DNA of 64,000 nucleotides from Polytrichum commune. Lineage: Eukaryota > Streptophyta > Polytrichopsida > Polytrichales > Polytrichaceae. Under the pieces are notes generated by a model. The model did not search any database. It was not told the origin of the DNA and was given only the letters and a program-made list of their open reading frames with translations. Both the position numbers and the translations under genes were made by a program. Positions 15,361 through 53,879 of the stretch are shown here, one piece after another; positions within the stretch are counted from its first letter, which is position 1, and every line of letters begins with the position of its first letter. Location: the NCBI GenBank assembly GCA_950295325.1, contig OX485806.1, positions 36,768,001 to 36,832,000 on the forward strand, given 5' to 3'.

Positions 15361-16078
15361 AACACTATATTCGTTAAATTGAGACTTTCTCTAGTCTCAA
15401 ATTAATATATGAATCAAACAACATGAAGATGCCCGAAAATATATTGTCAATAATCTCAAATATATTATATGTTCTAATATCCCAAATCTATGATGTTTGG
15501 ACATAAGCACATATGGTAGAGCACTCGACACCAACTTCATCAACAAAAACACATTGGGTAGAGCACTCCAAACCAGTTTCACCCAAAAAACATATAAAAT
15601 GATTTCTATTATTAGCATGCACAATAGAATATAGACATTGCAACATACAAAGTGCATGTAATAAATGCATATTTCTTCAATTGACAATATAGTCCCAAAC
15701 TTAATAATAAGATGAACTTCACATTTTTTTTGAAATATAGTAAATGGATATTCATCCAACCCCAAACAATATAGCATTCGTAAGTTCTACCCAAACTCTG
15801 CCCCAATTTTGAAGAGCACACATATGAGTAATTTATATTGCTATAATTACGTATTAAACTATAATCATGCTAACACAATCCTACCAACTTCTCATTCAAC
15901 GTTGGTTGCTTCTTGTGCGATCCGAGCAAGGTTGTCTTTTGCAAAAGTTATGTACTATTGAGGGATGGACATTGATCCACTATGGTTTTTCCGTGGTTTC
16001 CATGCTATGAATATGGAATTTGTATCTACCCAAGATGGACCGTGCTCAAAATCCACCTTCCACCAAAAGTTAGGGTTT
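15361..16078 (-). mobile_element. Left-end fragment of a giant-transposon copy (DUF7869 gene 3' end)
   Basis: It starts AACACTATATTCGTTAAATTG, identical to the terminal inverted repeat at 29660, and stays colinear with 29660-30370. It includes the last codons of the DUF7869-type gene on the minus strand (about 15905-16078). It stops where an LTR-A copy begins at 16079. The rest of this copy is not found next to any LTR end in the window. Confidence 0.85.
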
Positions 16079-29400: not shown

Positions 29401-30189
29401 TGATTTCAGTATATGAAGTTATAATACCCGAATGGGTATCCCAACCACTAGTTACACCCTAATCCAAACTCTCTCCTTCCCTAATCACATGTTTTCTAAG
29501 TTTTTTTTTTTTTTTTTTCCTTGCTCCTAAATAATAAACTAATCTAACACACTAATTCCACTAACTACTAACTAATCAACACGTGCAACTTTAAGCTCTA
29601 AGAGCTCCCTCAATTGGGAGGCATTGAGAGAGAGAGCTTAACTAATTAACTTCACTAAGAACACTATATTCGTTAAATTGAGACTTTCTCTAGTCTCAAA
29701 TTAATATATGGATCAAAGAACTTGAAGAGGCCCGAAACTATATTGTCAACAATCTCAATTATATTATATGTTCTAATATCCCAAATCTATGATGTGCGGA
29801 CATAAGCACATATGGTAGAGCACTCGACACCAACTTCATCAACAAAAACACATTGGGTAGAGCACTCCAAACAAGTTTCACCCAAAAAACATATAAACTG
29901 ATTTCTATTATTAGCATGCACAATAAAATATAGACATTGCAACATACAAAGTGCATGTAATAAATGCATATTTCTTCATTCGACAATATAGTCCCAAACA
30001 TAATAATAAGATGAACTTCATTTTTTTTTGAAATATAGTAAATGGATATTCATCCAACTCCAAACAATATAGTATTCGTAAGTTCTACCTAAACTCTACC
30101 CCAATTTTGAAGAGCACACATATGTGTAATTTATATTGCTATAATTACGTATTAAACTATAATCATGCTAACACAATCCTACCAACTTC

Positions 30190-33100
30190 TCATTCAACGT
30201 GGGTTGCTTCTTGTGCAATCCGAGCAAGGTTGTCTTTTGCAAAAGTTATGTACTTTTGAGGGATGGACACTGATCCACTATGGTTTTTCCGTGGTTTCCA
30301 TGCTATGAATATGGAATCTGTATCTACCCAAGATGGACCGTGCTCAGAATCCACCTTCCACCGAAAGTTAAGGTTTGTATCCCAGCCTGTATAATGCCGA
30401 ATCACATCTTCATTCCTTGCTGTCGGTCGATAGTACTCCACTTGTATCTGTCGAAAATGAGGGCTGGAAGTTACAAAATTGGGTTTGGACAAAGCTCTTG
30501 CCACCCACACTGGCTTTGCATATGTCTCGTCTCCAGGACGTAAAATGAGCATATAACCTTCATGACAATCCACTGCAATGCGGAAAGATGGTGGGGGACG
30601 ACTACTAGCCGGCCCCACGTAATGGTCGTCCACATCAAACTCCTCTCGAACCTCTCCATTTCCCAAAAGACTAGGCTCCGAAGCTTGTACATCGACTCGT
30701 GTTTGTGGCCAAAATCCATGCCTCAAAGTATGAGGGCTATCTTGGTGGAGGTCTGCCAAGGCGGCACGAACACGTGTCCAATAATGTATCCAACTCCCAT
30801 AACGATGCCAACATGATCCGCCAACATCCGCTATTTTAAAACTCTCCCAATATTGTATGAAGCCTGATATACCTTTCAAAATATCCTCCAAATTCTTCAT
30901 GGCTATTGGCTTGCAAGGCCTAGGCTCCCCATCCGGTAACATGGTCTTTCCATCCGCATCCACGCGCCACACAAGAAGACCCTCCGGCGGGCTCCAGTCT
31001 TGTGTCGTGCACAACAACTTATATTGCATGGCCGGGACACCATCGTCACGCATATAGAAGCGGAATTGTTGTGCCTTCGTATGCCCGATCAATCGGTGAG
31101 CTCCACTTCGAATATAAGGTTCTATAAATGCCTTGAAGTCTGGCACCTCCTCAATCATATGGGGGATGACCGGAACGTTATCCAAATCCATGTACGACTT
31201 CATCAATAACGGGATTGTAGGGAAATCCTCCTCCCGCAACTTCATGCTCCACCGCCCAAAAGATGCATCAATATCATCGTGCGTGTGGCCTACCAATAGG
31301 AAGGACACAAAAACCTCCTTGAAAATACCTTTCGCAACCAACAACGACCAATATGCAAAAACATATCTACTTTTATTGTCCTTGGCACAATTGTCCAATT
31401 GGACACGCAAAGTGGGAGGCAACTTTTTGGCAATCACGGGATCACTGGGTGGCTCTGGCAACGAATGAAAGCATACATCTTTTCCATCCAACAACGCTTC
31501 ATATAGAGGTGTTGAACCCGTGTTTTCAAATAACAATCCTGAAGAATAGGCTGGCGGTTTCTCTAAATCACGTAAAAGCCTTGCAAATGACCCTATTGTG
31601 TGGTTTGAATCCGCTGGATACAAATCAAGAGCATAATGAGCAAACTTGACATCACCGTGTCCATGTGCAATCATTCCTGCAATGCCAACCCAACGTGATT
31701 AGATATAATTAAACCATTTTGAGTGAATCCATGTTCTCAAGTACATCACGGAATAAAAAACCACAACATTTAGGGTATGTCATGACATTGTTTCGAAGTT
31801 CACCTGTAACCGATACAGGCAACTTAAAAAACCCATCCGTGGCCTTGATTCGATTTGCAAAACATGGGGAGGCTATTTTGGCATGGTCCATTTTGTCATG
31901 GATGACCGTAAGAACCTCCAAGGGCCTGGAGATGGACAAAGCTCTATTTGTGTAATAATCATTACGGTGTGCCTCTTGCATGTTTACGTGCTTGAAATAG
32001 TTCAATTGATGCGCTGCATATGACTCGGTACCCATCGTGTGTGCATCCCGGAGGCGCTTCAACTTCTCGCAATTAGAGCACCTGGCAAATTTGTCCCCTC
32101 GTCTTTTTGTAATGTATTCGCTAAAGTTTTGTTTCTTAATTGCACTCAATTTTGACAATGAAATTGGCTCCAACCCAATCTTCTCGCCAACTGCATTCAC
32201 GTCCAACAATATGTCTTTCCATTTTGTGCCTGTGGGAAGAACTTTCTCCACAACCTTTTCACCGGTTGTGAGCGTGCGTGTTTTGTGCGGCATTGCATCG
32301 GCAAGGGGGACAATGATGGTTGCTAGAGTGGCCGTTGCTTGCCTTGTTGCTTCCCTAGGCTTCTTTAAACCCACATTACCATGGTGACGGGACCGGCGGC
32401 CTTCCTTGGCATAAGCAGCTTGTCGATAAAAGTCCGCTTTCGACACACCGTGAATGGTGTACCATGCCTTACAACACACGTCCATGCTTTCAATGGTGAT
32501 GACCTTGCGACCCATCCCATTCACATGTATCGCCCTATGGACATCAAGTTTTCTTGTGGATCTTAGACGGAAATCTCCAAGCCACATTTCTTCGCGGATG
32601 GCCTTCAATTTATCCCTTGGAAACAATTGGCAACAACGATGCACACAACAATCCTTTGTGGCAACTTCTCTAATGGACTCCTCCCCGAGCAACCTTTGAC
32701 GTTTACAATCAGTTGCAGACGGAGCAGGACGTGCCAATGTATCGTACTTTCTTTGACCCTTGCGCGGCCGCATGTTTGCTTGCACCTCCTTTTCGATTTG
32801 CATGTGTCGTTGCTCATGTTCACGCAAGCTAACTCCATCAATTGTGACATTCCTCAACGGCCACCTGCGGAGGGAGAACCTATGAGTGGGATCCACCTCG
32901 GAATGAACGACCGACTCCAATATGACAACCCCAACGTCCTCGGTGCCAAGCGGGTTTTCATCAATGCAATCTTGCGGATGGGTGTTACGGCAAATCCCCT
33001 CCGCCACAACAACTCCACTATCGTTAAGAAGTATCACCTCCAAATTCACCCACGAAGCCCTTGAAAGTCCCGTACATTCAACAATGGGACACTGCGGTAC

Positions 33101-33247
33101 GGAAGACGAAGGTAAATCCAAATGATCTTCATCCGCACTGTCAGCCATAGTAGCCTCCCCGACAATGTCTAAGTCATCATCAGATGCAGATGGCCAAGTG
33201 GCCATGTCATCAGATGACCAATCCCCAATTTCACTAAACCCATCCAT
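30190..33247 (-). CDS. DUF7869-type transposase-like protein, two exons, 976 aa
   Basis: Exon 1 runs 33247-31804, the intron 31803-31677 (CAG|GTGAAC donor, TTGCAG acceptor, 127 bp), exon 2 31676-30190. The exons total 2931 bp, exactly 977 codons, and no stop remains. I chose ATG 33247 because a TAGGCAG acceptor lies just upstream, suggesting a 5' UTR intron. Exon 1 has an acidic N-terminus, Cys/His-rich motifs near residue 200 (CCVHRCC) and 260-270 (CCKAWYTIHGVS), and a CSNC pair near 410. Exon 2 has the family's hallmark blocks: TGMIAHGHG at the junction, VQLDNCAKDNKSRYVF near 573 and LLVGHTHDDIDASFGRWS near 610. From family knowledge this resembles an RNase H-like, D-rich transposase core; catalysis is inferred. 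It is probably the element's transposase. Confidence 0.75.
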
Positions 33248-33461
33248 TCTGCCTACACACATGAACATTGAACATTGTCAAAAAATCACAAAAATTGTAG
33301 GTTCAAATCGAAGACCACAAAAACCATCATATATAAACAAAATTGCAAATACTCAGTGCTCATACAAGTTCATATGACTAATATGCCATTGGGTTCGTAA
33401 AGGTTTTGGATGGCCAGTGGCCACACTGTCATCCAGATCCCATCCACACTTAGAGGCTGGG
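33248..33461 (-). promoter_or_regulatory. 5' region of the DUF7869-type gene
   Basis: Holds the presumed 5' UTR intron end (acceptor about 33250). It runs directly into the palindrome array, so transcription probably starts within or beyond that array. Confidence 0.4.
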
Positions 33462-34889
33462 TTTGGGTCGAGCGACCCAAACCTTTTGGGAGGAGGTTTC
33501 AGGCTCAATACAGAGAGCACCCACACTTAGGCGCTGGGTTTGGGTCGAGCGACCCAAACCTTTTGGGAGGATGGGTTTAAGGTCACGACAAGGAGCACCC
33601 ATACTTAGGGGGCTGGGTTTGGGTCGAGCGACCCAAACCTTTTGGCAGGATGGGTTTAAGGTCACGATAATGAGCACCCATACTTAGGGGGCTGGGTTTG
33701 GGTCGAGCGACCCAAACTTTTTGGCAGGATGGGTTTAGAGTCACTCCAGAGAGCACCCACACTTAGAGGGCTGGGTTTGGGTCGATCGACCCAAACCTTC
33801 TGGCAGGATGGGTTCAGGCTCATTAAAGACAGCACCCACACTTAGAGGGCTGGGTTTAGGTCGATCGACCCAAACCTTCTGGCAGGATGGGTTCAGGCTC
33901 ACTAAAGACAACACCCACACTTAGAGGGTTGGGTTTGGGTCGAGCGACCCAAACCTCGAGGCAGGATGAGTTCAAGCTCACTACACACAGCATCCACACT
34001 TTGGGGCTGGGTTTGGGTCGACCGACCCAAACCTTTTGGCAGGATGGGTTCAGGCTCACAACAGTGAGCACCCACACTGTAGGGTTGGGTTTGGGTCGAC
34101 CGACCCAAACCTTTTGGCAGGATGGGTTCAGGCTCACAACAGTGAGCACCCACACTGTAGGGTTGGGTTTGGGTCGACCGACCCAAACCTTTTGGCAGGA
34201 TGGGTTCAGGCTCACAACAGTGAGCACCCACACTGTAGGGCTGGGTTTGGGTCGACCGACCCAAACCTTTTGGCAGGATGGGTTCAGGCTCACAACAGTG
34301 AGCACCCACACTGTAGGGCTGGGTTTGGGTCGACCGACCCAAACCTTTTGGCAGGATGGGTTCAGGCTCACAACAGTGAGCACCCACACTGTAGGGCTGG
34401 GTTTGGGTCGACCGACCCAAACCTTTTGGCAGGATGGGTTCAGGCTCACAACAGTGAGCACCCACACTGTAGGGCTGGGTTTGGGTCGACCGACCCAAAC
34501 CTTTTGGCAGGATGGGTTCAGGCTCACAACAGTGAGCACCCACACTGTAGGGCTGGGTTTGGGTCGACCGACCCAAACCTTTTGGCAGGATGGGTTCAGG
34601 CTCACAACAGTGAGCACCCACACTGTAGGGCTGGGTTTGGGTCGATCGACCCAAACCTTGAGGCAGGATGGGTTCAGGCTCACAACAGTGAGCACCCACA
34701 CTGTAGGGCTGGGTTTGGGTCGATCGACCCAAACCTTGAGGCAGGATGGATTCAGGCTCACATCAGTGAGCACCCACACTGTAGGGCTGGGTTTGGGTCG
34801 ATCGACCCAAACCTTGAGGCAGGATGGGTTCAGGCTCACAACAGAGAGCACCCACACTGTAAGGCTGGGTTTGGGTCGACCGACCCAAA
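33462..34889. repeat. Array 1: 19 palindromes, about 77-bp period
   Basis: Nineteen copies of TTTGGGTCG-NN-CGACCCAAA (first 33462-33481, last 34870-34889) are each followed by a near-identical spacer (GGCAGGATGGGTTCAGGCTC and so on). Centres are AG in copies 1-4 and 7, AT in 5-6 and 16-18, AC in 8-15 and 19. Long open frames exist on both strands because the unit avoids stops; these are artefacts. The array abuts the 5' side of the DUF7869-type gene. Confidence 0.95.
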
Positions 34890-37250
34890 CAATTCCGCAA
34901 AATCCGCCTATTTATTCGGGTGATTCTCTATTAATCTATATATAACCTATTTGGAACAACTGAACTCGTAGATATTTGTTGTAATTAGCTGCTCATGAAT
35001 GGAAACGTACACAAACCGTGTATTACAGCTCCAACTTAGAGAGCTTGCAGCAATCTCAGGATTGGGACATGAAAGAAAGAACCAGCATTTGGGGGGGTTG
35101 GGCTCTTTATACTACCCGCCTCCGCTTTGGGCATCCTCTTTGGATGCCTTTCCCGCCTGGTCTCCTTTGGACGTTAATTCAAACCTTCTGACTCAATTTC
35201 CCGCTTCTTGTCAATAATAGACAATGTATATTTAGCTTGGCTCTTCGTTGCCCCAACCATCAAATGAATAATTCAACATATATTATTTAAAGTTGTTACC
35301 ACCCTAACTTGGTCAACACTATTCTTCAACTCTTTCATAATTAGTTTTATACATGAATACACCACCACCTTCCCTATTGCCATCTCCTTTCTCCTTTTAT
35401 CATTGTTGTATTTTTTTCTCACATCCTTACTAATACTAAATTCCTATATGTAACTTCCATATATCACCACAGTGGATATTTAGTGTTTGAGTTTACATTT
35501 AATGTTACTTACTCTCATAGGGTTAGTAATAGGAAGTGTATGCGTTCGTTTTAAGTGTATCAAACACTAACTATCATATAACTAAAAAGGATATAAAGAT
35601 TTTCATACACTACATATGAACGCATACACTGAATACCAATAACCCTGTGACAATATGTAAGATTATATCTATTAAGGGGTTTTACTCTACTTGTAGTCAA
35701 ACATTATGGTATATTTCAAACAATATATTGACAAAAGATGTGCATGTATTACAAAACTTCATATACTAAAAGTCACTAAAAGTCACTAAATATAATAGTT
35801 AATGCAATTACTTACACTCTCACATGAGGACTTATATTTTGAAAACAAATAATTAATGCCATGACAAACTTGAATAATTTGGCCAACTTTCAATTTCCGC
35901 TAGTTAAAAGAACATCTGTTGTGTTGTAATGTGTGCACCCAATATTGCTTCATCCTCAAGGCTCCAAGTGTGACAATAACCTAGTACCTATGTGGAAGTC
36001 ATTAATGGAACCATAAACCACAAATGACATTTGGCACATTCAATGTTTCAATGATGTTTGAACCTATCGTGAAGTCCCTTGAACTCTAGCAATGTGTGTG
36101 AGCAAAACATGCAAAGTTCAAAAGGTATGTCCTCATATCATTCACAACATGAAATCTACCTTAAATTAATATATAATATTTCACTATTCCAAATAACATG
36201 TTAACATGAACAACATCCTATCTATTATAATCTAGTTCTTATGCTCTTCTTACCAGGTGACAAGGTTATAGGTTAATATTGTATCACCTACTTGTGACCA
36301 CAATATCATTTATTTCCTTTAGTGCGTTCATTCGTGAAAAACCACACATCCATCTTTCACGTTTGTGAATTAGGATGTTGTGATGACATTATACATTTGT
36401 ATTGGAAACTACAAGCACCAAGGCCCATGTCATTTGACCTATGTGCCATCCAGTTATGGTTTGTGTTGTTTAGGGTTTAGGGTTTAGGGTTTAGGGTTTA
36501 GGCATCATCAAACATCAAATTGAATGTTTAAATGACTTCATATGATATGTGAACTCCATGGGGTTGCAGTAGATACATTTGTAATCATTTGTTTCTCCCA
36601 TGTACTTCAAATGTGAACTTCTAAGTACATATATTAATGTTCACTCTAATGCTACTTGTTAGGGTATCCATTATAGACTAGAGCATTGTCCTCTACCAAC
36701 AACCATCATATAAATTACAATACATAATCCTAAACTGTTAACCATGTGAATGGTTACCATATTTATATTATTGCACCGTGTAATTGCCTTTGTGGATTGC
36801 AATATAATTATGACTTACTCCTCTTAGACTTTGTAACACTCTCATATGATTCCATAAATTACATTATTCATACACCAAAACGATAATGGCTACATTCTAC
36901 GATGTTATCAATTCCAACGGGTGATCATTCAATTGAACACCATTAAAATATGAATTGGCGATGGTGTTAATTTTGTGGAATACCTTAGTCCACGTAGGTT
37001 TTTGAGTGGTATTGAATTGCCGCTAATGAATAGCGGGTTAGAAGGCCGGGGCCGGGCGGCCAAGAGAGGCGCCGGCCCTCCTATGTCCCGCACCTAGGGG
37101 CAAGGACAACCAGGAAGGCAATCTGCCTAGGGTGGCAGGTGTCAACACCACAAGCCTCGCGGGCAACCACCTTAACCAAGGAGGTGTCGACACCTGGCAG
37201 GGTGTTGGCCCGCGAGGCTTCTGAGCCGTTGATGGGCCCGGCGCAATCTA
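34890..37250. other. Central intergenic region of the giant transposon
   Basis: AT-rich and non-coding. It contains a small inverted repeat around 35521-35548 and 35608-35640 (GTATGCGTTC/GAACGCATAC) and about five telomere-type TTTAGGG units at 36469-36502. A GC-rich patch at 37040-37230 has an inverted pair around CCTCGCGGGC/GCCCGCGAGG. No gene is supported. Confidence 0.5.
36469..36502 (+). repeat. Interstitial telomere-type repeat
   Basis: Just under five tandem TTTAGGG heptamers, the plant telomere unit, flanked by ordinary AT-rich transposon DNA on both sides. It is not a chromosome end. Confidence 0.9.
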
Positions 37251-37887
37251 ATGGTTCGGATTCGAGGGTTTAGGGTGACCCCTTCTGCTCTCTCCTTCTC
37301 TCCCCTCCTCTTTTTTCTTTCTCTTTTTTTCTTCCTCTCTTCCTCTCTTCCTCCGCGCCAAGCGCCGCTCTTGGAAACGCCGCCGCCGCTTTCCATAGCA
37401 CCGCGCCAAGTGCTTCCTTTCGCACCTTTTGCTTTTGTCTTGGTCGCGCCGCTTCCTTTCATTCTTCTTTCTCCTTCATTCCTGTCCTCCTCTCTGATGC
37501 TTCTCCTCCTCTTCTCTCATTCTATTCCTCTTGTTATTGTCTTCCTCTTGTTATTCTCTCTTCTTGGTCCAGAGTGTTAGCTTTGAGTGAGTTCGGAGCG
37601 GTTTATTGTGTTGAACTCCTTACTTGTTTTGTAAATTTCATGCATGGAGTGATTTTAGGTTGAGTAGAAGTGAGCACGGTCGAGTGTGATAGAAAGGTAG
37701 AGGTCTTTCAAATTAGGCCTGAGTTTGCAAGAATCAGGGGGTTTGTGAGAAAGTTTTAGGGTGCTTGAGAGATTCATTGTGTTTTTGAGGTCTTTGTGAG
37801 AGTTGTTCTTTAGTGCCACAACAGAGTTTCTGAGTCTGGTTGTAAGAAGCAGATTGTGAGAGCAACTTTCAAGAGTTTGAAAGACAA
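37250..37887 (+). promoter_or_regulatory. Candidate promoter and 5' UTR exon of the plus-strand gene
   Basis: A telo-box-like GGGTTTAGGGTGA (about 37266) is followed by a strong CT-rich tract (37280-37350), both common in plant promoters and leaders. A consensus donor AAG|GTAAGC at 37887/37888 can pair with the acceptor GGTTGCAG right before ATG 39009. That would make a leader intron of about 1.1 kb holding palindrome array 2. No reading frame here is convincing. Confidence 0.45.
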
Positions 37888-38082
37888 GGTAAGCAATTTG
37901 CATCAGTGCACACAATTTGCATCATTCCTTTTAGGTTCCTGTTACATATACAATGCATAAGCATTGTATATGTTGCCCAAGCATTAAACATGCATCTGGA
38001 AACACAGTAGTTTGGGGAGACGACCCAAACTCATATTAAAATATAATAAATATTTGAATTGCAGCCTAAAATGAACTAAATG

Positions 38083-38842
38083 TTTGGGTCGTTCGACCCA
38101 AACATTGCAGCGTCTTGTTTGGGTCGAGCGACCCAAACATTGCAGCCTCTTGTTTGGGTCGAGCGACCCAAACATTGGAGCCTCATTATGTTTGGGTCGC
38201 TCGACCCAAACATTACAGGGAGAAGAACTAAACCACATTGTAAAATATAAAAGAACTTTGAAAATTAAGTAAATGTTTGGGTCGTTCGATCCAAACATTG
38301 CAGTCTGAAATGAATGGGTTGAGCTTCCTAAATTTGCAGCCTCATCATGTTTGGGTCGCTCGACCCAAACATTACAGGGAGAAGAACAAACCACATTGTA
38401 AAATATAAAAGAACTTTGAAAATGAAGTAAATGTTTGGGTCGTTCGACCCAAACATTGCAGTCTGAAATGAATGGGTTGAGCTACCTAAATTTGCAGCCT
38501 CATCATGTTTGGGTCGCTCGACCCAAACATTACAGGGAGAAGAACAAACCACATTGTAAAATATAAAAGAACTTTGAAAATGAAGTAAATGTTTGGGTCG
38601 TTCGACCCAAACATTGCAGTCTGAAATGAATGGGTTGAGCTACCTAAATTTGCAGCCTCATCATGTTTGGGTCGCTCGACCCAAACATTACAGGGAGAAG
38701 AACAAACCACATAGTAAAATATAAAAGAACTTTAAAAATGAAGTAAATGTTTGGGTCGTTCGACCCAAACATTGCACTCTGAAATGAATGGGTTAAACTA
38801 CCTAAATTTGCAGCCTCATCATGTTTGGGTCGCTCGACTCAA
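38083..38842. repeat. Array 2: 12 palindromes in the presumed leader intron
   Basis: Twelve copies of the TTTGGGTCG-NN-CGACCCAAA palindrome. From 38275 a 158-bp unit with two sites repeats, so centres TT and CT alternate. A further site with one arm mismatch lies at 38961-38980, just before the start codon. Spacers differ from those of array 1, so only the palindrome is shared. Confidence 0.9.
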
Positions 38843-39008
38843 ACATTGCAGGGTGACCACCTAAACCACAATTTAAAATCTAAAAGATCTTTTAAAACGA
38901 CTTTGAAAATTAAGTAATGTTTGAGTCAATCCTCCAAATGTTAAATGCACATTGCAATACTTTGGGTCGATCGACCGAAACTCACAGTTTCGATTTCTTG
39001 GGTTGCAG

Positions 39009-40333
39009 ATGGCCCCTAAAAAAAGACCAGGTGAAAGGTGGTTCATGCTCGCGCCAGACCACCTTTGGCAGGAGTATGAAACTCCACAGGACGATTCTTA
39101 CGTCCCAAAAGATGGCGTCGTTCTGGCATGGTCCGTTCAGGTGGTGAAGGCATCCATGTTCAAGCTGCTATTCGTGGTGAAGGTGGGGACCCACGAGCAG
39201 CACACCTGGGCAACGCTGACGGGATGGGAGGTTGCGTCTGTCCAGTCTCTCGGGGACTATGTAGACGTCATACTGGAGAACTCCGCCGTGCAGAACGTCC
39301 ACATGTTCATGCACCAGTTCTCCGAGCCCTTCGACCCCCTGTACGCCAAGGAGACCTGCGTCGACCCTGAAACCATACAACCGGAGGCCATATTCATAGA
39401 TGGCAGTGTAACCAACACGAAGGTTGCGAGCAGGTTCACGAAGTTAAAACAGGCCATCACGGTTCTAAACAAGGCGCTGCAAAGCAAACCCAAGACACAA
39501 CAGCCTGTGAGGCGGAAGGCAACGACGGAAGAAGGCGCAGGGTCCTCAAGACCACAAACTGTGAGGAAACCGCGGGCGGTCCCTGTGGAGTCGAGACGGA
39601 CAAGTACTACAACAACGCCGGCTAATAGCGAGACGCCAACGCCATCAACAAGCCGTCAAACGACCCCTTCCAAAAGGGGAAGAGAGTCATTGGTGATGAC
39701 TGACGAGCCTGTTTCCCCGGAGCTCCGGATGCCGAAGCCTGGCCAGGAGGTGGATGCAGGCGAAATACAAAAAATAAACACCAACTTCGAAACAAAATGC
39801 CTGCACTGCTTCTTCATGGGTAGGGACTTCAAGTTCGAGGTCAACATTGCGCAGTGCCACCTTGCGCCACCCGAGAAATGTGTCCGAGCCAAGGAGGACG
39901 CCTACGTCGACTGGATGGTCGCTCAAATCTTGGGCGGGCAGTTCAAGGACGATAGGCAGACGATTGTTGTCATGCCACAAGGGTTGAAGAGAATGCCGAC
40001 GCCTGATATGTGGCCGACAATGTCCAAAGGAGACTTCTGGTTGATTGACGGGAAGCACAGTGTGGAGGCATCAAAAAAAATCCAGCTGATGACCGAGTGG
40101 AACGACCCGAACAACCAGAAGGAAAACTAAAAGTTTGGAAGGCTTTGGTGGTTTGGTCGGACAACGAGACAGTCCTCAGCGACATCTCCAGGTTCTTCAA
40201 CATGGGGAACAAAAAGAGGGCCTATCAGGCATCGTGGATCAGAAACATCATGGCCTCGAGGGAGGTGTGGGAGTTTTATGGCAGGCCTCCCAGGGAAAGG
40301 GAGAATGCTAAAGATAAGAACCCCAAATGGGAG
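39009..40333 (+). pseudogene. Exon 1 of the transposon gene: N-terminal and ParB/sulfiredoxin-like segment
   Basis: Starts MAPKKRPGERW right after a TTGCAG acceptor. Residues 1-150 are a compact unrecognised domain. Residues about 160-235 are Ser/Thr/Pro-rich and basic. Residues about 255-365 fit the ParB/Srx fold pattern: a strand ending in P-x-x-K-x-V-R-A, a helix (VDWMVAQIL), a strand QTIVVMP, then FWLIDGKHSVEASKK, where D347-G-x-H corresponds to the DGxHR signature. The frame then hits TAA at 40128, while homology continues in another frame (KVWKALVVWSDNETVLSDIS) to the donor at 40333. A single-base indel explains this. The ParB/Srx reading rests on motif spacing only. Confidence 0.6.
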
Positions 40334-40342
40334 GTGAGTATG

Positions 40343-40533
40343 TTTGGGTCGACCGACCCAAACTCTTTCATTGTTTTAGTGTCTTCAACAAATTCATAGT
40401 TTGGGTCGGTCGACCCAAACTCTTGCATGACTTTGTTGTCTTTACCAAGTTTATAGTTTGGGTCGCTCGACCCAAACTCTTCCATGACTTTGTTATCTTT
40501 ACCAGGTTTATAGTTTGGGTCGATCGACCCAAA
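40343..40533. repeat. Four palindromes in intron 1
   Basis: Sites at 40343-40362, 40400-40419, 40457-40476 and 40514-40533, exactly 57 bp apart. All four centres differ: AC, GT, CT, AT. Confidence 0.95.
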
Positions 40534-40596
40534 CTGCTGTTACATTTGTTATTCCATGAGATGTTGTCTAACATGAATTGTTGGCTACGTGTGCAG

Positions 40597-43500
40597 GACT
40601 TCAAATATCAGATGATCAATAAATTCTCCTCGATAGACAATGCTAGCCACAAGCAAAAAAAGTATAACGAGTTGCGAGGAGAAATATATTTGATCACCGC
40701 GTCCGACTCCGTGTGGGGAAAATGGAGGAGTGTTTTTGAAAAACACGAGACGGGGGACCTTATGGACCCCGACACCGGCATGCTCTTCAACCAGACTACG
40801 CGCTTCAAGCAAATGAAGCCTCTGGTGAGGGAGTTCTTCAGAGCGCTTCAAGGTCTTTCCGAGACAGAGATGGGAAAAGCGGCGTCCCACATCCTACACG
40901 TGGAGACGACGGCGAAGAGATGCTGGGTCCACCCCAAGATCGTCTTCACCAAACCCAAGATCTTCGTCCCTTCATGCTACACCATGAAGGAATGGACGGA
41001 GAACAGGAAGAAGAAGACGACCATCGTCCAAGAGCTGCACAAGCTGGTGCCCGAGAAGAAGCTCATCGTGGACGGAGAGGTCGACGAGGCGTGTGAACCC
41101 TTTGAGTGGTCCACCACTCTGCGGGATCACTTTTAGTTAGAATGTTAGCATTAAAAGTTAGAATTGATAGGGAATTTAGGGAAAAATTAGTTCATTTAGC
41201 ATTTAGCCTAGAAGAAGGAAGGTCAAAATGAAACTAAGTAGTGCTAGAAGATAGCAAAGTAGAAAAAATATGCTAGCTAGTAAAAACAACTAGCTAAGCA
41301 AATATTAGTAGATGCTAGCTATTAAGCAAATGTTAGTAAATGCTAGCTAAGCAAGTGTTAGTTTATTAGTTAGTGTGAGGCACATAAGACTATTAGAGGT
41401 GGTTTAGGTAAGAAGATAAAATCGGCTTGAAGACTTTTGAAGACAAAAAAGAAAGAGAGCAAGGGGGATACTTGCCCACTTGCCCCCTTGCCAACTCGAT
41501 GGCGGAAAAATTAGAAAGATTTCTAAAGGTTTTTTGTCGGAGCCACCTCGGCGAGAGGGTGGCAACCTCAACCGGGAAAACCCCCGAGCCAAAATTTCGG
41601 GAAAGGGTTTGAAAAATGGATCCGGAGGAGGGGTCTAGTTTTTGGGCGAAGCCGTGCTTCAATGTAGTTAGGAAAAAATCCTTTAGCATGTATTCTCAAT
41701 GGTCTAAAAGAAAGGCTTGAGAACCTCCTCTACTCTCTCTCTCCTAGTTAGGTTGTGTGTTTATTAACACACCAACAAAATTATTCCTTCTTTTGTAGAG
41801 GTAGGTTGGATGGTAGAGTTTTGAGTAGAGGCATTATAGACCTCATCTGCCAATGCCCTGAAAGCTTAGTTCAAAAGCTAGAACAAGATACTTATCATTT
41901 TTCTCTTAGAGAGATTTCATATAGCTATCCATAGCCGTTTCCCATTTGTGATTTGGTTGAGATGACAATTAGTTATGGATTTTCAAAGATGGAGTAAAAA
42001 AACTGGGTGGTCTTGTGGGTAGCGGCTGCTGGATCAGACCTGCGAGCCCAATAGGAATTTTAATTCCAAGAAATTATATTTTTCCCAAGTAGAACTTTTG
42101 TGTAGCTTTCCAAAATGGCTTAGAACATTTGATTTGAGCATGATTTGAATTAGATATGAATTGTGCAAGATGGGACACATAGTTTGAGAACTTTTGGTTG
42201 ACTGCTGCATTACAGAGGACCTGCTGGGTTCACTTCGGCTTACCTTTCTAATCACATATTTTTATCAAATACATCTTTTTAATATCTCTCCAGGGTCATA
42301 TAGAACGTTTGATTTGACTAAGATTTGAATTAGATATGAATTGTTGAAGGCGAGATACATAGTTTAAGCCTTCTTGATTGACTACTGTGTTACAAGGAGT
42401 CCGCTGAATTTCTATTAGCTTAACCTGCTGATGTCATAATTTTTTCTAGTTAGAGCTTGTTCATAGCTTTCCAATGGTATAAGGAAAGCCTAGATCCAAG
42501 TAGTAAGGAATGTGCTATGAATTTTTGAAGTTAGAAGGTAGATAGGTGGGTTGGAAGGGTCGGTTGAATCGACCTCACACTTCCAACCCTCATAACTTTT
42601 GCATTTCTTATCCGATTAGAGTGATTTTTAGATCATTGGAAAGATAATTTGGTGCACTAAGTATAAATATTATGCTTAGGATTAAATTACAGGGCAGAAT
42701 AACACTTTATATTTTAATTGTTAACTAAGGTACGCTTACTACCAAACTAGTTACAAAGAAGGAGGCAAGGTCGACGCTCGGAAAGTGGAGCAAGGAAGGA
42801 GGTAGCGGCTCGGCCTACATCAAGCCCAAATCAACCGAGGAAAATTGAGGTAAATTAACTAACCTTAAGCCTTCCATTTAGGATTGGAGGGAGCACGGCT
42901 AAGGTACGCATCTCTAAACCCACTCACCTATCTCGTAAGGTCAAGTGGCTTGACCACTTGACCGCCAAGGGAGTACCCAATTCCATTGTTTTCGGGGCCC
43001 TTGGTATGTTTTGTGGTAGTAGCTTCATTTATTAGCAAGTTTCGTGTGTGGTAAGTCGGATTAATCACCGACACGACCACTCTGAATGTTGTTGGTGGAA
43101 AGGTGGGGTTAATGACCCGCGAATCCACTATTATGTTGTTGGCCCCATAGATTGGGAGTAATGGCCCCAATTTATGAAGATTGCGCAACAGGTTGAACCT
43201 ACAGGTCGCCCGTCACCCTGGTCCCATTGAGTTGCATTTCGTGGTCTATCCAGTGTAAACACATTTAACAATCAAAACATACAAAATAAATCGTAAACCC
43301 TTGTTGGCAAGAGAACCGAGGTAAGGGGTGATGCCTAATATGTTAATGTAGTAAGTTAGGACGTGCAAACAAAAGTAAGTAATTAAGAAGGAATTTGTGT
43401 GAAGGGTGGGACTTAGGCCAAGTTCCCCCGCTTAGAAAACTAAATAGAACTAAATAAAGAAATAGGAAGAATTGAATGGTCCATCAAATTGTCGTTATTC

Positions 43501-44709
43501 CGTTCGTTGAGTTAGGGTGGTATGAGTCACACCCGGTTGGGTGTATCAGAACCATCCCAATTCACAAATTATGATTGCCTTGGTTTCAAGGCTGGTGCGT
43601 CTGCGCGTAGAATAGGTTGTAGGTTAAGGTTAGAACTAGATATGAAATTGGTTAGTGGAGTTTAAAGCCACACTAGTAAAAAACTAAGGCCTAACCTCCG
43701 GAGGTACTACGACGCATATTTAATCTCCCTTAAAAATCTAACTACTCACGTTATACACCTATCATCCGGGTTCGGCTTGGGCGCCTGCAAATGCAGGCCA
43801 CCTTCACCGAAGGGCTTGTGTGATACTTTTAGGCTCCCTCGAAAGGGGGTGGCCCAAAAGTACCACAAGGCGCACTGGAGGGCCTTCAAAGCCGAATATA
43901 AGTTCACCAGTGCGTCCATGGCGGCACTCATGAGGGAGGCGGGAGACGACTTCCTCAGATCCAAGCTCGTGAAGGGGGGGAGGAACCGGGTGCTTCCCGA
44001 ACACTCAGCGCGGGCCTTCTCCAACTTCATAAAGGAGAAGAAGATCGTCAGTTTCGAAGGCGATGCGCAATTCAACATGGTCACCGTCGAGCCTCTCAGG
44101 ATCCAAGGTTGGCCGGGCTCTGAGTCCAGGAAGGCGATCAGGACTAAAGCCGGGGACCGCTTCCCCTTCGGAATGATAGACTTCAGGAATATCCCTGGAG
44201 CCTCATTCGAGGGGACTATGAGCACCCCTTTTTACGATGCTTTCTTGTCGAAGTTTGTGGACTACGCCAGCCCCAAATTCAGGGAGGTCGACGTCTGGCT
44301 CTGGATTGTCGAGGACAGGAGGGCAGAGCAGGTTTACGAGATCGTGCGCAAATTGCAGCCGGAGTATGCCGTCTCGAAATCTCACTACGTTGCTGCACCG
44401 GCGGAGGGGGCGTACAGCACGTTGAAAGACAAGAAGACGAAGATCATCAACGTGTTGTGCTTGTACTTCGTGTACAAAGCTGATCTACTTAAGGTGCCCA
44501 ACCATCCTATAGCCAGGATGGAAAAGCTCTTCCAAGTCTAAGAAGGGTTGGGTACCAGCAGGAGCTTGTATGACGAGGCGAAGTACGCCAACTACCCCGC
44601 GGATGAGCTGCGCATGGAGTTCTACCTGCGGATGATGAGGACCCTCACCAAGAGAGGGGACTGCATCTTCAACGTTTTCAGGGGATCCAAACCGATTTTT
44701 GCAGCAATG
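40597..44709 (+). pseudogene. Exon 2 of the transposon gene, split by LTR-B
   Basis: Part one (40597-41091) encodes DFKYQMINKFSSID and LITASDSVWGKW, matching the paralogue at 464-940. Part two resumes at 43873 after the 5-bp duplication, in the same frame. It encodes HWRAFKAEYKF, FGMIDFRNIPG, DVWLWIVEDRRAEQ and, after an in-frame TAA at 44539-44541, YPADELRMEFYLRMM. The exon ends at ATG|GTAAAC. I recognise no named domain. Conservation with the decayed paralogue across both halves shows it was a constrained part of the protein. Confidence 0.75.
41092..43867 (+). mobile_element. Solo LTR-B copy A, 2776 bp
   Basis: Termini TGTGAACCC...GTACCACA with the 5-bp duplication AGGCG (41087-41091, 43868-43872). 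It is nearly identical to copy B at 56143-58982, apart from about 65 bp missing near 41632. No coding capacity is seen, so it is a solo LTR or a terminal-repeat-only element. Strand is nominal. It lies inside a coding exon of the giant transposon and is therefore younger than it. Confidence 0.9.
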
Positions 44710-44744
44710 GTAAACAAAGAACCCTGAAAGCCCTATACGGACGG

Positions 44745-44907
44745 TTTGGGTCGAGCGATCCAAACTATGTTTGCCCCTAGTTTGGGTCGAGCGACCCAAA
44801 CTGGGTATGCCCATAGTTTGGGTCGAGCGACCCAAACTGGGTATGCCCATAGTTTGGGTTGAGCGACCCAAACTGTGCATGCCCTAGTTTGGGTCGCTCG
44901 ACCCAAA
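44745..44907. repeat. Five palindromes in intron 2
   Basis: Sites start at 44745, 44781, 44817, 44853 (36-bp spacing) and 44888. Centres are AG four times, then CT. Two sites have one arm mutation each. Confidence 0.95.
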
Positions 44908-44991
44908 CTAACTATTCTTATTTTATTTTGGATGTCATTTTTCCTTACTCTTCATTAGTTTATACTAATACTATTGATTTGGATTGTGCAG

Positions 44992-46457
44992 ATGTCTGGG
45001 TTGAACATCTACTCCTATGTGGAGGATGCCGATGTTCAATTTTACAGGACCCAGAAGGCACTGGCCAAGAAAATGGACATCCTTGACTGGATACCCGGAT
45101 CCTACGTTGAAGAGATAGTCGAGGGGGGCGAGAATCCTTTGGATATGGCGAGGCGAATCAACCCGGGTGAATTCGCCATGCGTGCCCCCGTTCAATTGCC
45201 AGAGCCGCTCATCGGGTTGCATCCGGGCAATCCGTCGATGGGAGCAGGTGGCGAGGTTGGGGAGGAGGGGGGGAGGAGGAGGAGGAAGCAGAGAAAGTGG
45301 AGGGGGAGGTGGAGGAAGGGGCAACAGGATTCACTCAAGAATCCGAGGCCCCTCAGCGGAAGAAGGCCATGCGGGCTGCCACGCCGCAAAGCAGGCTGGT
45401 GCCCGCGTTGACGGTGGACGACGCGAAGGACATGTACTCGAGGGACGCGACGGCCACCTTCAGGGAGCGGAGAAGGATGAAGGGGAAGAAGCTGTACGGG
45501 GACTATGCGGTGGAGGAGACAATCGCAATAAGCTCAGAGGACGAGGACGACATGGAACTCGCCAAGAGGCTGAGGTCGGATCCTGCCTCCCCCAGAGCGT
45601 TCGCCGGGAATGTGAGGGTGAAACCGGAGGTCCTCACCGTGGAGGAGGCGAACGCAAAAATGCTCCGAGACGAGGAGCAGCGTGTGCGACTGCAGAGGGC
45701 TGCCGCCGAGGAACCCTCGGTCCGCAACGAAGTCGCGGAGTTGAGGGCTCTCCTGTTGGAGCAGGAGCGGCAAAGGGCGATGGCCCAAACTCCGTCCCAA
45801 GCGGAGCTCATCACGCAAGTGATCCAGGGCATGCTGGCGCAGGGATTGGTGATGGCTCCCCCGAGTTCATTCCCGCACTTGCCCGCAGGCTTCCCGCCAC
45901 AGGATATCGCCCTGCGGCCCACGCTGCAGCATTCCTTCAGCTTCGCGCAGTTGCTGCAGCCGCACGCCCGCCCTTACGCGCCCGTCCAGCAGGTGGACGA
46001 CCCCAACCTTTGGCGCGTCGCCGGAGCGTCCAGCTCGTTGGCGCCCCCGCCGCTCCGGCCTCCCATCCTCTCACCCCCACAACACCAGCGGGACGACCCC
46101 CACATGTTTGGGTCGTCCGACCCAAACAGTGCCCACGTTGCAGCGTCCCAGAGCGACGCTCGCCAAGCAGCAGGGTTTGGGTCGGCCGACCCAAACCCCG
46201 TCCCCGACCAGACCCCGGTGGATGAGGGCATGTTAGACGTTGAAGGCCCGCAAGGGCCTGGTGATACCTCTACTCCTAACCCAGTCGATGAACCAATGCA
46301 TGATGCGCATGCGGAGGTTGGGTTGGGACAAAGGCCTGACAGTCAGCCTTTGCAGGAGCAGGTTGCGGCTGACGTCGTCGTCGGAGGCGGCGGGGACAGA
46401 GGTGGGGCAGCGCAGGCGATGCCGGCATCAACGTCGTCAAGGCACGACCAAGGCGAG
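44992..46457 (+). pseudogene. Exon 3 of the transposon gene: acidic and coiled-coil region
   Basis: Starts MSGLNIYSYVEDADVQFY after GTGCAG. A run of G and GA repeats at about 45250-45300 carries a frameshift. Read across it, the protein has a Glu-rich stretch, then AMRAATPQ, a charged helical region (about 45650-45790, EVAELRALLLEQERQRA, likely coiled coil) and a Pro/Ala-rich tail. Two palindromes lie within this coding sequence (46107-46126 and 46176-46195), each read as FGS-x-DPN. The exon ends GAG|GTAATG. Confidence 0.65.
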
Positions 46458-46968
46458 GTAATGCACTGACCCCACTCAGTTTGGGTCGGTCGACCCAAAC
46501 TCCATGGGTCTTTGTCTTCTTGCCTTGGTCGTGTCCCCTAGCTACCCTAAACTCACACACACGTCGCCCCCCCGGCACTCGCGCCCTTCGCCACATCCCC
46601 CCGACCATTCGTTCGTCCACCTACCCCGGCTTGCGACGAAGTCTTCATCACGGCGGCCCGTCTCTTCAAATTTTCCTAGATTTAGAAATAGGCTAGTTTG
46701 AACGCATCGTTCAACGCGGCTCCCCCCAATCAAAATGTACATAGAGCATTGTATACAATACAATCACCATTTTTGACTCCTATATACTTGTATATTGTGT
46801 TTGAATGTATTTTGTATGCTCTTGTCTCTCTTGTATCCCTTGTTGCACCCCCTCCAAAATGAATCAATTGGTTTTGTGTTTGCACCAAGAACACTCGTTT
46901 CCTTAATGCTTCGTTTGGACATAGCATGACATAAGTCGCCCACCGTTTTCTCTTGATCGTATCCGCAG

Positions 46969-47781
46969 GGCTCGGAGCACAGCGTAGCGGCTCCCCGACG
47001 CTCTTCTCCAAGGAGCGCAGAGGGCAGCACGGCGGCCCCCCCGGTTTTACCCGCCCCGCCCCCGCTGCCGAAGAAACGATTCCTGGTGTTAGACCTGAAC
47101 GGTGTCCTCGTGCAGTGCGTTCATTGCCCTAGGGCCCCCACAGTGCCCTTTTGCAAGCCCGAGGACGCTAATTACGACAGGCCGCCCACGTTCATAAAGA
47201 GCAAGCTAGTTCACCTCCGCCCGTGGCTTCGGACCTTCCTCCAGATCGCCCAACAACGATGGTGGGTGGTCGTGTGGAGCTCCATGACGGCCGAGAACAC
47301 CAATGCGGTCGTGGAGTTCATCTTCAAGGGCATCGAGCCCCCCTGCATGGTCCTAGCACAGGAAGCCTGTAGAATATTGTACACACCGGACGGCAAAGTC
47401 GTCAAAAAACCAAACAACCCCGCTTCCCCCCAATACCTCAAGGTCTTGAAGCCCATTTTTTGGGACCAGCGACCGTCCTTGATAGGCGTCCCCTACGACG
47501 TCCGCCCCACCCGCGAGAGCACGCTCATGGTGGACGACAGCGCCGCAAAGAACATGTTGAACCCGACGGCCAACTTCATAGTGTGCCCTACGTGGACGGT
47601 CGAGAAGGTCCGGGACCGATTTTTGTTAGACCTTAGTAAATACCTCCAGGCGCTCTGGGGAAGCGGACTTCCCGTAAACAATTTTGTTAGGAATAATCCC
47701 ATAGGCGAGAGATACTTGGATCCACGAGACCATTTGTACAGAGAGTTGTTATCTCACGCGAAATTTAACAAGCTCATTTGA
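46969..47781 (+). CDS. Exon 4 of the transposon gene: FCP1/NIF-type HAD phosphatase domain
   Basis: The open exon reads through a Pro-rich stretch into a HAD-fold domain of the FCP1/NIF group. Motif I is KRFLVLDLNGVLV (first Asp codon 47092, Asn 47098). Motif II is VVVWSSMTAENT (about 47266-47301). FWDQ follows near 47460 and motif III is LMVDDSAAKNML (47524-47559). Canonical FCP1/SCP enzymes have D-x-D; a plant subgroup I know has D-x-N-G, as here, which replaces the usual acid/base Asp. Activity is therefore uncertain. The domain ends near LWGSGLPVNNF, and the frame closes at 47781. It may have been captured from a host gene. Confidence 0.8.
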   Translation, partial: GSEHSVAAPRRSSPRSAEGSTAAPPVLPAPPPLPKKRFLVLDLNGVLVQCVHCPRAPTVPFCKPEDANYDRPPTFIKSKLVHLRPWLRTFLQIAQQRWWVVVWSSMTAENTNAVVEFIFKGIEPPCMVLAQEACRILYTPDGKVVKKPNNPASPQYLKVLKPIFWDQRPSLIGVPYDVRPTRESTLMVDDSAAKNMLNPTANFIVCPTWTVEKVRDRFLLDLSKYLQALWGSGLPVNNFVRNNPIGERYLDPRDHLYRELLSHAKFNKLI

Positions 47782-47924
47782 GACAGTACGTGTGTTTGTA
47801 TGTGTGTGTGTGTATATGCGCCTGCCCATTTTGTGTAATTTATGCTTCATATGTATCTTGATTTTCACGCGCTCTATCTCCCCCCTTTTCCTTGGGTTTT
47901 GTTTTGTTCCAATTTTGGCTCCAG

Positions 47925-48734
47925 CGTTTGGAGCCCTCGATTGACGTCGTCAGCGAGTCAGACTTGGGGAGCTTCTTCTACGAAACCGTTTACGACGCCG
48001 CGTCAACCATCGACTACTCCAAGGAGCCTCTTGACGCCGGCGTCGTCGATAGCCCCCCACCCAAGCAAATCTTCCGGCGATCTGCGTCCCCGTCACCGCT
48101 CAAAGGCATAAATCGCAAATGCGTCCGGACATCCCCCTCTCGGCCCGGCGGCAGTAGTACACCTCAACGGCGGCTGCGGATGGACGCTCGGCCTACGAAG
48201 AGTGGAACCCTTCCTATTCCTTTGCGGGATGCCTTGCCCCTCCTCGCCAACTCCGACGGGAACGCCCCCGGTGACAAGGTGAACCCCCCCCAACCCCCCC
48301 AAAAAACATGGTTATCCGCGCATTACAATCATTTTGCACTTAAAAAATGAACGTGTGACACGTTTGGGTCTTCCTCCCTAAACTAACACATGTGTTCTTG
48401 CGTTGACGCGTTGCAGGTTGCTCCCACCCGTAAACCTATGCGGTCTAGTGCGTCCATCGAGTTGGAGCGTTTCTACTCCATGACCAGAAATGCAAGACAG
48501 TCCACTTCATCGTATTCGAATTCTTCGTCGTATAATTCGGGCGGCCGACGGAATACAAAATGTGTTATTGATGGCGTTCACCCCAAGAATGGCTATAGTC
48601 GCGGGGCGGAGATTTTCAGGAATGTTGAAGCAATGCGAGCAAAAGAAGCTGCAGCAAAAGAAAAAGAGGCAAAAGAAAAAAAAGCAAAAGAAAATGAAGC
48701 AAAAGAAAAAGAGGTAGTATCCGAGGCTAGATAG
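47925..48734 (+). CDS. Two further coding exons, Lys/Glu-rich C-terminal tail
   Basis: Exon 47925-48278 (acceptor GGCTCCAG, donor AAG|GTGAAC) encodes RLEPSIDVVSESDLGSFFYE followed by a basic, Pro/Ser-rich segment. Exon 48417-48734 (acceptor GTTGCAG) encodes a Ser/Asn-rich stretch and a tail of repeated KEKEAKEKKAKE. Both are phase 0. They could be joined to the phosphatase exon through a CCC|GTAAAC donor near 47673, or form a separate small gene. No domain is recognised. The intron contains a decayed palindrome at 48362. Confidence 0.5.
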
Positions 48735-49284
48735 GCCATAGTAGGCGTAGGGTTTTGGGCCATAGGCAAGAACATTTTGGGTCGCACTATCCAATGCATG
48801 TGTGGTGTTAGCATGATATGCATTTTACATGCCACACTTTGTATGTTTTTTTTTGCAATAATACAAGTTAGACATGATTTCCCCTTCCATATGGTCTAAG
48901 GTTTGGATTGCCCTACCTAAACCATCACAAATATGAGTTTGGAATATTTTGTATGCAATATTATATTGGTTAACATATTAACCCTTCAATAAGATCTATG
49001 GTTTGGATTGCCCTACCTAAACCATATTCATACAAGCTCTAATATTTTGTGTGCAATAATATGAATGTTTTAAGGTTTCCCCTTAAATGTGGTCTAAGAT
49101 TTGGATTGCCCACCCTAAACCATCACAAATATGAGTTATTTATGGGGTTCTTGGTCTAAACACCTGCTTCAAAGTGTTCGCATCTTACAACTTTCTCCAA
49201 TATGTGTTCCATTTATCCTTGCTCTTATTTATGTGAATGTCTCAAAATGCCCAAAAAGTCTCAATTTAACGAATATAGTGTTTA
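48735..49284. other. Right subterminal region of the giant transposon
   Basis: Non-coding. At least three phrases of the type GGTTTGGATTGCCCTACCTAAACC (near 48900, 49003 and 49093) look like decayed forms of the palindrome, evenly about 100 bp apart. It ends in the terminal inverted repeat. Confidence 0.6.
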
Positions 49285-50017
49285 AGAACTAATGTCTCAC
49301 ACACGTGGCTCAAGCTCTTTAAGAGCTTGCTCTCTTGAGAGCGCTTGATGAAGAGAGAGAAAAATGAGAGAGAAAACACCTTAAGTAGTAAAAAGGGAGA
49401 GAGGGAGAGAGGGAGAGAGAGGTGAGGATAGGGTGAGAGGATTAGCACCTCCAATCACAATCCATTAACCCTCACCTTCAAAGTAGGGACTAATCCCCTT
49501 CCACCAAGCTTCCTTCTTCCTAAACTACCAAGGTGGATCCAAAAGTGGGCATTTAACCCGCGGAGCTCACCTTGCTTCACCTTACCCCCTACTCACATTA
49601 TCAAGGCATACTCTTATTGAATCAACCTTGAAATAATCACACGACACATTCTAAAGCCTAAACTTAAATCCAAACCACACTTCACTATTTTTATGTTTTG
49701 TGAATAATCATAACACATCAAAGTCAAACTAAAATTGGTTTCGAAGAGTTAATCACCACATGTGGGCACCATTTTGGGCTCACACCATCATAATTTAAAC
49801 ATAATATTAATAAATATGGGAGTTTTACAATCCCTAAATTTGGGGGAAAAAATGGGAATTATATATTATGATGAACTTGGGTACAGTATAACACTCCATA
49901 GGGAACGTGGAAACACGATAATACAATGGGAAGATGGGCACAAATTTGCATAAATTTCAAGCATCGCATATTTCAATAAGTTTTTATAAAAATTGGTTGA
50001 TGTAGTTTGGGCTCACA

Positions 50018-53786: not shown

Positions 53787-53879
53787 ACACACTCCTAAGT
53801 AGCAGTGTCACTTTCAAGCAAGTGTAGTGGATACAAAAACTACAAGTCAGCCTTCAGATTTTGAATGAATATAGCTCTT

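Follow-up and report, generated by a model that had tools for sequence, protein, structure and literature searches.

Arabidopsis VANDAL elements provide one of the closest described parallels: it is reported that, through VANC, plant transposons use arrays of an intronic motif for anti-silencing, that the VANC21 motif is rare in other transposable elements, and that VANC6 also affects AT9TSD1, which is not related to VANDAL (PMC5735166, PMC10398659). The effect of VANC6 on AT9TSD1 is a precedent for sharing between families. Bacterial ParB-type proteins provide another parallel: KorB has a 16-bp OB site and VirB a parS-like site, virS (PMC12704722, PMC11790492, PMC10770331), and VirB, a ParB-type protein, counters silencing from parS-like palindromes at a distance (PMC10770331). 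Here, we describe a 64-kb stretch of the genome of the moss Polytrichum commune (contig OX485806.1, positions 36,768,001 to 36,832,000; hereafter the window), which contains a transposon with two divergent genes, gene 1 and gene 2, and many copies of one short palindrome. We propose, with a probability of roughly 0.45, that this palindrome is the recognition site of a dimeric reader of double-stranded DNA, likeliest the product of gene 2, which would mark copies of the element and keep them expressed.

A preliminary description of the window had reported about 44 palindromes with 9-bp arms. The exact form, TTTGGGTCG-NN-CGACCCAAA, is present 38 times in the window, every time within 33462-46499, and allowing at most one arm mismatch gives the reported 44, all inside one transposon (29660-49282). 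Their distribution was also as described: array 1 has 19 sites and array 2 has 13, two introns have 4 and 5, an exon has 2, and the last intron has 1. Thus 42 of the 44 lie in likely introns and 2 in an exon; introns and splice sites were assigned by eye throughout, that of array 1 from a splice-like acceptor just 5' of the ATG. The groups of sites are as follows.

33462..34889, array 1: 18 exact palindromes and 1 with one mismatch, repeated with a period of 77-79 bp in the likely 5' untranslated region (UTR) intron that precedes the start of gene 1
38083..38980, array 2: 10 exact palindromes and 3 with one mismatch, inside what is probably the 5' UTR intron of gene 2 (~37890-39008)
40343..40533, gene 2 intron: 4 exact palindromes with a period of 57 bp
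44745..44907, next gene 2 intron: 3 exact and 2 one-mismatch palindromes
46107..46126, plus strand, coding exon: one palindrome, read as FGSSDPN
46176..46195, plus strand, coding exon: one palindrome, read as FGSADPN
46480..46499, last gene 2 intron: a lone palindrome

Genome-wide (assembly G000; 407.8 Mb in 64 contigs), the exact palindrome occurs 9731 times and the reversed pattern 0 times. When up to four mismatches are allowed, the window and the fetched loci (235,600 bases together) hold 353 sites, whereas their backward reading gives 4; the enrichment is not due to chance. The 2-bp spacing is fixed, as freeing the spacer to 0-8 bp raised the genome count by only 4, to 9735. In the fetched DNA, 255 of the 261 exact sites are preceded by G and followed by C, so that the arms are 10 bp long rather than 9 and the full site is the 22-bp palindrome GTTTGGGTCG-NN-CGACCCAAAC. 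A variant half with C for G in TTTGGG adds 556 genomic sites (10287 vs 9731). In all four copies of the element, the site closest upstream of the gene 2 ATG (38961-38980 in the window) carries the TTTCGG/CCGAAA change on one side only.

The central dinucleotide had been described as free. Eight different centres do occur in the window, as reported, but the genome-wide counts show that the centre is constrained: pyrimidine-purine steps make up 38 of the 9731 centres, all of them CA or TG, and TA and CG are both absent. The first centre base is A in 5310 sites and the second is T in 5413, yet both together (AT) are found in 1661 sites where independence would predict 2954. An A stands beside at least one arm in 9062 sites (93%), and the centres that have it beside neither arm number 669 against 1962 expected under independence. 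Since copying within families inflates these contrasts, we give no p-value for them; zero TA among so many centres would nevertheless be difficult to obtain unless the centre is constrained. The two-fold symmetry of the site was examined through the changed arm pairs of sites with one to three mismatches, of which 95 of 96 are changed on one side, 1 is changed on both sides without restoring pairing, and 0 are compensatory. In addition, asymmetric centres are found in both orientations within single arrays, and in part of copy C they alternate. The lack of compensatory change and the two centre orientations fit a dimer on double-stranded DNA better than an RNA structure. The dimer-type site of the preliminary description is thus supported. 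The rule found here for the centre predicts concretely which centres should be bound in an assay: those that lack a pyrimidine-purine step and have A next to one arm or both.

That the arms rarely change while the spacers do was borne out by comparisons within and between copies. When 18 units of array 1 were compared with their consensus (the last unit was omitted, as its right side runs out of the array), 1 of 324 arm cells was changed, against 10 of 36 in the centres and 99 of 1043 in the spacers (p = 3e-11; because tandem copying makes cells non-independent, all p-values of this kind are guides only). Between the window and copy A, intron 2 has 0 of 72 arm positions changed, with 3 of 8 in the centres and 51 of 183 in the rest, and in intron 3 the contrast is weaker, both between the window and A (p = 0.016) and between the window and L029 (p = 1e-5). 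These intron comparisons cover the window and A for intron 2, and the window, A, and L029 for intron 3; the introns of copies B and C keep 2-3 sites each, with different spacing. Around the two coding palindromes, the exon sequences of the window and B differ at 0 of 36 arm positions and at 172 of 609 others (p = 2e-5). Reading exon 3 in frame in the same pair, copy A being out of frame in this exon, synonymous differences amount to 0 of 10 inside the palindromes and 148.5 of 270.3 (55%) outside, while both centre codons are changed; although the synonymous sites are few, this points to selection on the DNA letters themselves. In most comparisons, though not all, the arms stay while the neighboring DNA drifts. 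Homologues of gene 2 in public data (52 proteins) commonly continue from the first coding exon into the following intron. For 20 of them the reading extends 14 residues or more beyond that exon, and in 13 of these the added stretch contains a codon signature of the site (VWVxRPK, FGSxDPN, or LGRxTQT); 3 of the 13 are 99% alike, so that the cases are not all independent. The same signatures occur in 0 of 150 other fetched proteins.

The candidate reader is the product of gene 2, for which a ParB-fold domain is predicted.

39816..40219, plus strand: predicted ParB-fold domain of gene 2, equivalent to residues 277-411 of P0004, the homologue that was modelled (coordinates transferred by eye)

The ParB-CTPase fold was predicted on this homologue, which is 87% identical (AlphaFold2, Foldseek, VIA-align), and in the window the reading frame of the domain is broken near 40128. 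A profile search of PHROGs gave a weak ParB match for gene 2. The gene is under purifying selection, with a ratio of nonsynonymous to synonymous divergence (dN/dS) between A and the window of 0.12 in exon 1 and 0.09 in exon 2.

Sites equally common outside this transposon family would, according to the preliminary description, have counted against its reading. This is partly the case, since the palindrome is not confined to the family and a second, MULE-type family carries it too; we read this sharing as strengthening the view that it is a binding site. Among the first 100 listed of the 9731 genomic sites, all from the start of contig C1, 38 lie in copy A, 18 in B, 25 in C, and 14 + 5 in the second element. 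The 14 are at C1:438,280-478,027 and are taken to lie in one copy (C1:433,656-483,275), since loci D and E both carry the duplication TGGATGGAG and were read as its two ends; the fetched DNA covers this copy apart from a gap of 15 kb between D and E, and 2 of the 14 sites are in DNA nested in the copy. The other 5 are those listed in copy F. Target-site duplications of the second element are 9 bp long (AGTTGGCAT and TGGATGGAG, by eye). Its ends, which show a 57-bp inverted match at 88% in the D/E and F loci, are unlike those of the window element, and its DNA matches that of the window element through the palindromes only. No similarity could be detected between its putative transposase and the two open reading frames (ORFs) of gene 1 (best E 1.6 and 0.55). 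One strand carries a MULE-like gene, recognized by eye, with no Pfam match for the ORFs scanned, and the other strand a gene with a GxxR-like motif, WDGNHR; palindromes are at an intron-like position in both genes (by eye). The fold model of the MULE-type element's protein reached a mean predicted local distance difference test score (pLDDT) of 39, and a ParB fold is unconfirmed there. Of note, the WDGNHR gene ends in a DNA-methyltransferase-like part (L023 7273-7734; PHROG E 5e-5). The MULE-type element also holds a different palindrome, CCTGTGCG-TTAA-CGCACAGG, with 11 exact copies in loci E and F (L023 2500-4060) and an invariant TTAA, which is possibly a second site system.

Taken together, we infer that the gene 2 protein binds the palindrome, forms a clamp there, and opposes silencing. 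A dimer of the predicted ParB-fold protein would recognize the palindromes in introns of the element that encodes it and of related ones, and would accumulate on the arrays, loading many times along the transcribed DNA of the element. Since the arrays are in likely introns of both divergent genes, such repeated loading would be possible away from the ends needed by the transposase. Loading may then mark the element's own copies and keep both genes transcribed, either by antagonizing host silencing or by regulating the element's own genes, and the functional parallel would be VANC of the VANDAL elements in Arabidopsis or VirB, an antisilencer of the ParB type. Should gene 2 indeed bind the site, a DNA-loading module of bacteria, the ParB fold, would serve plant transposons as a means of self-recognition and would find about ten thousand sites already in place in one genome. 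This would be a second, unrelated case of the VANC strategy; it would account for the constancy of an intron motif amid drifting DNA, and it would yield a sharp sequence-specific DNA reader that can be studied in moss. A broader version, which we regard as doubtful and clearly less likely than not, is that two plant transposon superfamilies each combine a ParB-fold protein with intronic arrays of one palindrome, loaded to hold off silencing, so that ParB-like antisilencing, known from a bacterial plasmid, also arose in plant transposons. No account of such a system was found among the titles and abstract openings listed by searches of the open-licence literature, and the main text of a 2025 survey of the ParB fold (PMC12704722) has no words starting with 'transpos', 'plant', or 'moss'.

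A number of observations weigh against this proposal. The GxxR motif could be read in 37 of the 52 gene 2 homologues, and its nucleotide-binding arginine is present in none of these 37; no ParB match for gene 2 came from profile searches against Pfam, NCBIfam, or the sequences of PDB. In intron 3, the comparison of A with L029 shows arms changing as fast as spacers (10/70 and 19/133, p = 1), the very equality that the preliminary description had considered incompatible with a binding site; the exon contrast is weak or null between the window and A (p = 0.26) and between B and C (p = 0.62), where little is changed anywhere. Several further points speak for binding of the site by a transcription factor or chromatin protein of the moss, which two transposon families hijacked independently as an intronic enhancer. 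The same 22-mer is found in two elements that share no transposase similarity and differ in ends, target-site duplication length, and spacers; sites are near gene starts; and no relationship is detectable between gene 2 and the MULE-type protein. We consider this host-factor explanation the main rival and rather unlikely, because the first 100 listed sites (of 9731) read as lying in transposon copies or in DNA nested there, a coding exon and late introns are atypical positions for an enhancer, and the fold predicted for gene 2 is one that binds palindromes in bacteria. LEAFY came into view as a candidate host factor, and the accessible part of the relevant source gave no moss motif letters for comparison (PMC6588583).

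The remaining explanations are less probable still. CACTA (En/Spm) elements have 3-bp target-site duplications and subterminal TNPA motifs, and a transposase or accessory protein might likewise bind the palindromes to fold the element for transposition. One motif repeated many times with its centre in both orientations, a CACTA-like end (AACACTA), and four degenerate matches with three to four mismatches at 48363-49021, less than 1 kb from the right end, would all suit such a role; sites with no more than one mismatch nevertheless stay internal and come no closer than 3802 and 2783 bp to the element ends, and the site is common to two elements with different putative transposases, which makes folding improbable. 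Binding of the transposase to the ends themselves was rejected, as the good sites are internal. A role as RNA hairpins in splicing, double-stranded RNA, or small-RNA control would agree with the concentration of sites in likely introns and with the 8-9 bp stem that each could form. It is disfavored, to the point of being quite unlikely, by the missing compensatory double changes (although few changes make compensation rare anyway), by the conservation of letters and not of pairing alone, also at the coding sites, and by the two orientations of asymmetric centres within one array. Neutral tandem duplication with gene conversion could keep repeats alike, and the arrays are indeed tandem with neighbors often sharing centres; yet the spacers of the same units drift while the arms do not, and sites persist in diverged subfamilies at exon positions that are not tandem, as well as in a second transposon whose spacers are different, so that we give this explanation very little weight. 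The least credible is the recombinase core proposed in the preliminary description, in which the centre bases would be the crossover overlap of a site-specific recombination. Two-fold arms around a variable 2-bp centre are what such a core would look like, but the rule against pyrimidine-purine steps and the absence of a recombinase domain from the ten ORF stretches scanned speak against it, and an array holding dozens of such sites would presumably lose them by deletion.

The transposon that carries the sites in the window was delimited by its terminal inverted repeats, by alignment with three further copies (A, B, and C, near 0.62, 1.18, and 2.12 Mb of contig C1), and by the empty site in copy B. 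Its features are as follows.

29660..49282: whole transposon copy, including a 2.77-kb insertion
29660..29684, plus strand: left terminal inverted repeat, AACACTATATTCGTTAAATTGAGAC
49258..49282, minus strand: right terminal inverted repeat
29656..29659 and 49283-49286: left and right target-site duplication TAAG
30190..33246, minus strand: gene 1, putative transposase with DUF7869 (PF25273; Pfam E 1.9e-42 on ORF 30190-31698)
39009..47781, plus strand: gene 2, multi-exon, with exons by eye at 39009-40335, 40598-41090 + 43868-44710, 44992-46458, and 46970-47781
41091..43867: insertion interrupting gene 2, absent from copy A
47083..47655, plus strand: NIF/FCP1-like phosphatase domain (PF03031) on the C-terminal side of gene 2 (Pfam E 1.2e-14)

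The four copies have 4-bp target-site duplications (TAAG, AAGT, CCTT, and ATAA, by eye), and copy B, one end of which is degenerate, carries the empty form of the window copy's target, CTTCACTAAGAACTAATG. Between copies, gene 1 has a dN/dS of 0.14-0.16; its named relatives are Ceratodon and Physcomitrium proteins, and no open-licence literature on DUF7869 was found. Gene 2 of the window is broken by the 2.77-kb insertion and by frame breaks. Its NIF/FCP1-like domain reads DLNGV in all four copies, where we take the phosphatase motif to be DxDx(T/V), and may perhaps be a pseudo-phosphatase. The proportion of synonymous differences in gene 2 (pS 0.77 in exon 1, A vs B) is far above the synonymous divergence of the transposase exon (dS ~0.3, window vs B and C); either the elements are mosaic, as it seems, or gene 2 has a different history. 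Pieces of another DUF7869 element copy are found on either side of the window copy, at 15361-16078 and 51494-53787, so that the window element looks nested within another copy. A telo-box-like (TTTAGGG)4 block lies in the divergent promoter region (36469-36496) and is of the same length or shorter in A, B, and C. Near the right end, a tandem repeat at 48847-49131 holds an imperfect palindrome, GGTTTGGATTGCCCTACCTAAACC, which is a distant look-alike of the site (4 mismatches). Contigs C1-C7 of the assembly (77.9, 70.3, 59.2, 59.1, 52.9, 44.7, and 42.1 Mb) make up 406 of its 408 Mb, and we take them to be seven chromosomes, as in Polytrichaceae mosses.

In comparison with known systems, the window element resembles CACTA (En/Spm) elements in that its ends contain CACTA, that it has many repeated motifs, and that it has two genes. 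It differs from them in its target-site duplication of 4 bp instead of 3, in its DUF7869 gene, and in its good motif copies, which are internal and mostly intronic instead of subterminal. The phage fusions of ParB with a methyltransferase (PMC12704722) recall the MULE-type element gene with its WDGNHR motif and C-terminal DNA-methyltransferase match, with the difference that the latter belongs to a eukaryotic transposon and has a candidate fold only, given its low-scoring model. With ParB-parS, Noc, KorB, and VirB, the element shares the predicted ParB fold of gene 2 and palindromes of similar size (PMC12704722, PMC11790492, PMC10770331). Gene 2 departs from these systems by its missing GxxR arginine, no ParA was found, though no search was aimed at one, up to 19 sites stand in a row here, and the carrier is a transposon in a plant nucleus rather than a bacterial chromosome or a plasmid. 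VANDAL and VANC are similar in having a short motif that is dense in introns and non-coding parts of the element and spread by tandem repetition, and an accessory element protein beside the transposase (PMC5735166, PMC10398659). The VANC21 motif in the same sources is YAGTATTAY and is not called palindromic there, and the window element, with its 4-bp target-site duplication and DUF7869 gene, is not of the Mutator type, while the second family that carries the palindrome has target-site duplications of 9 bp.

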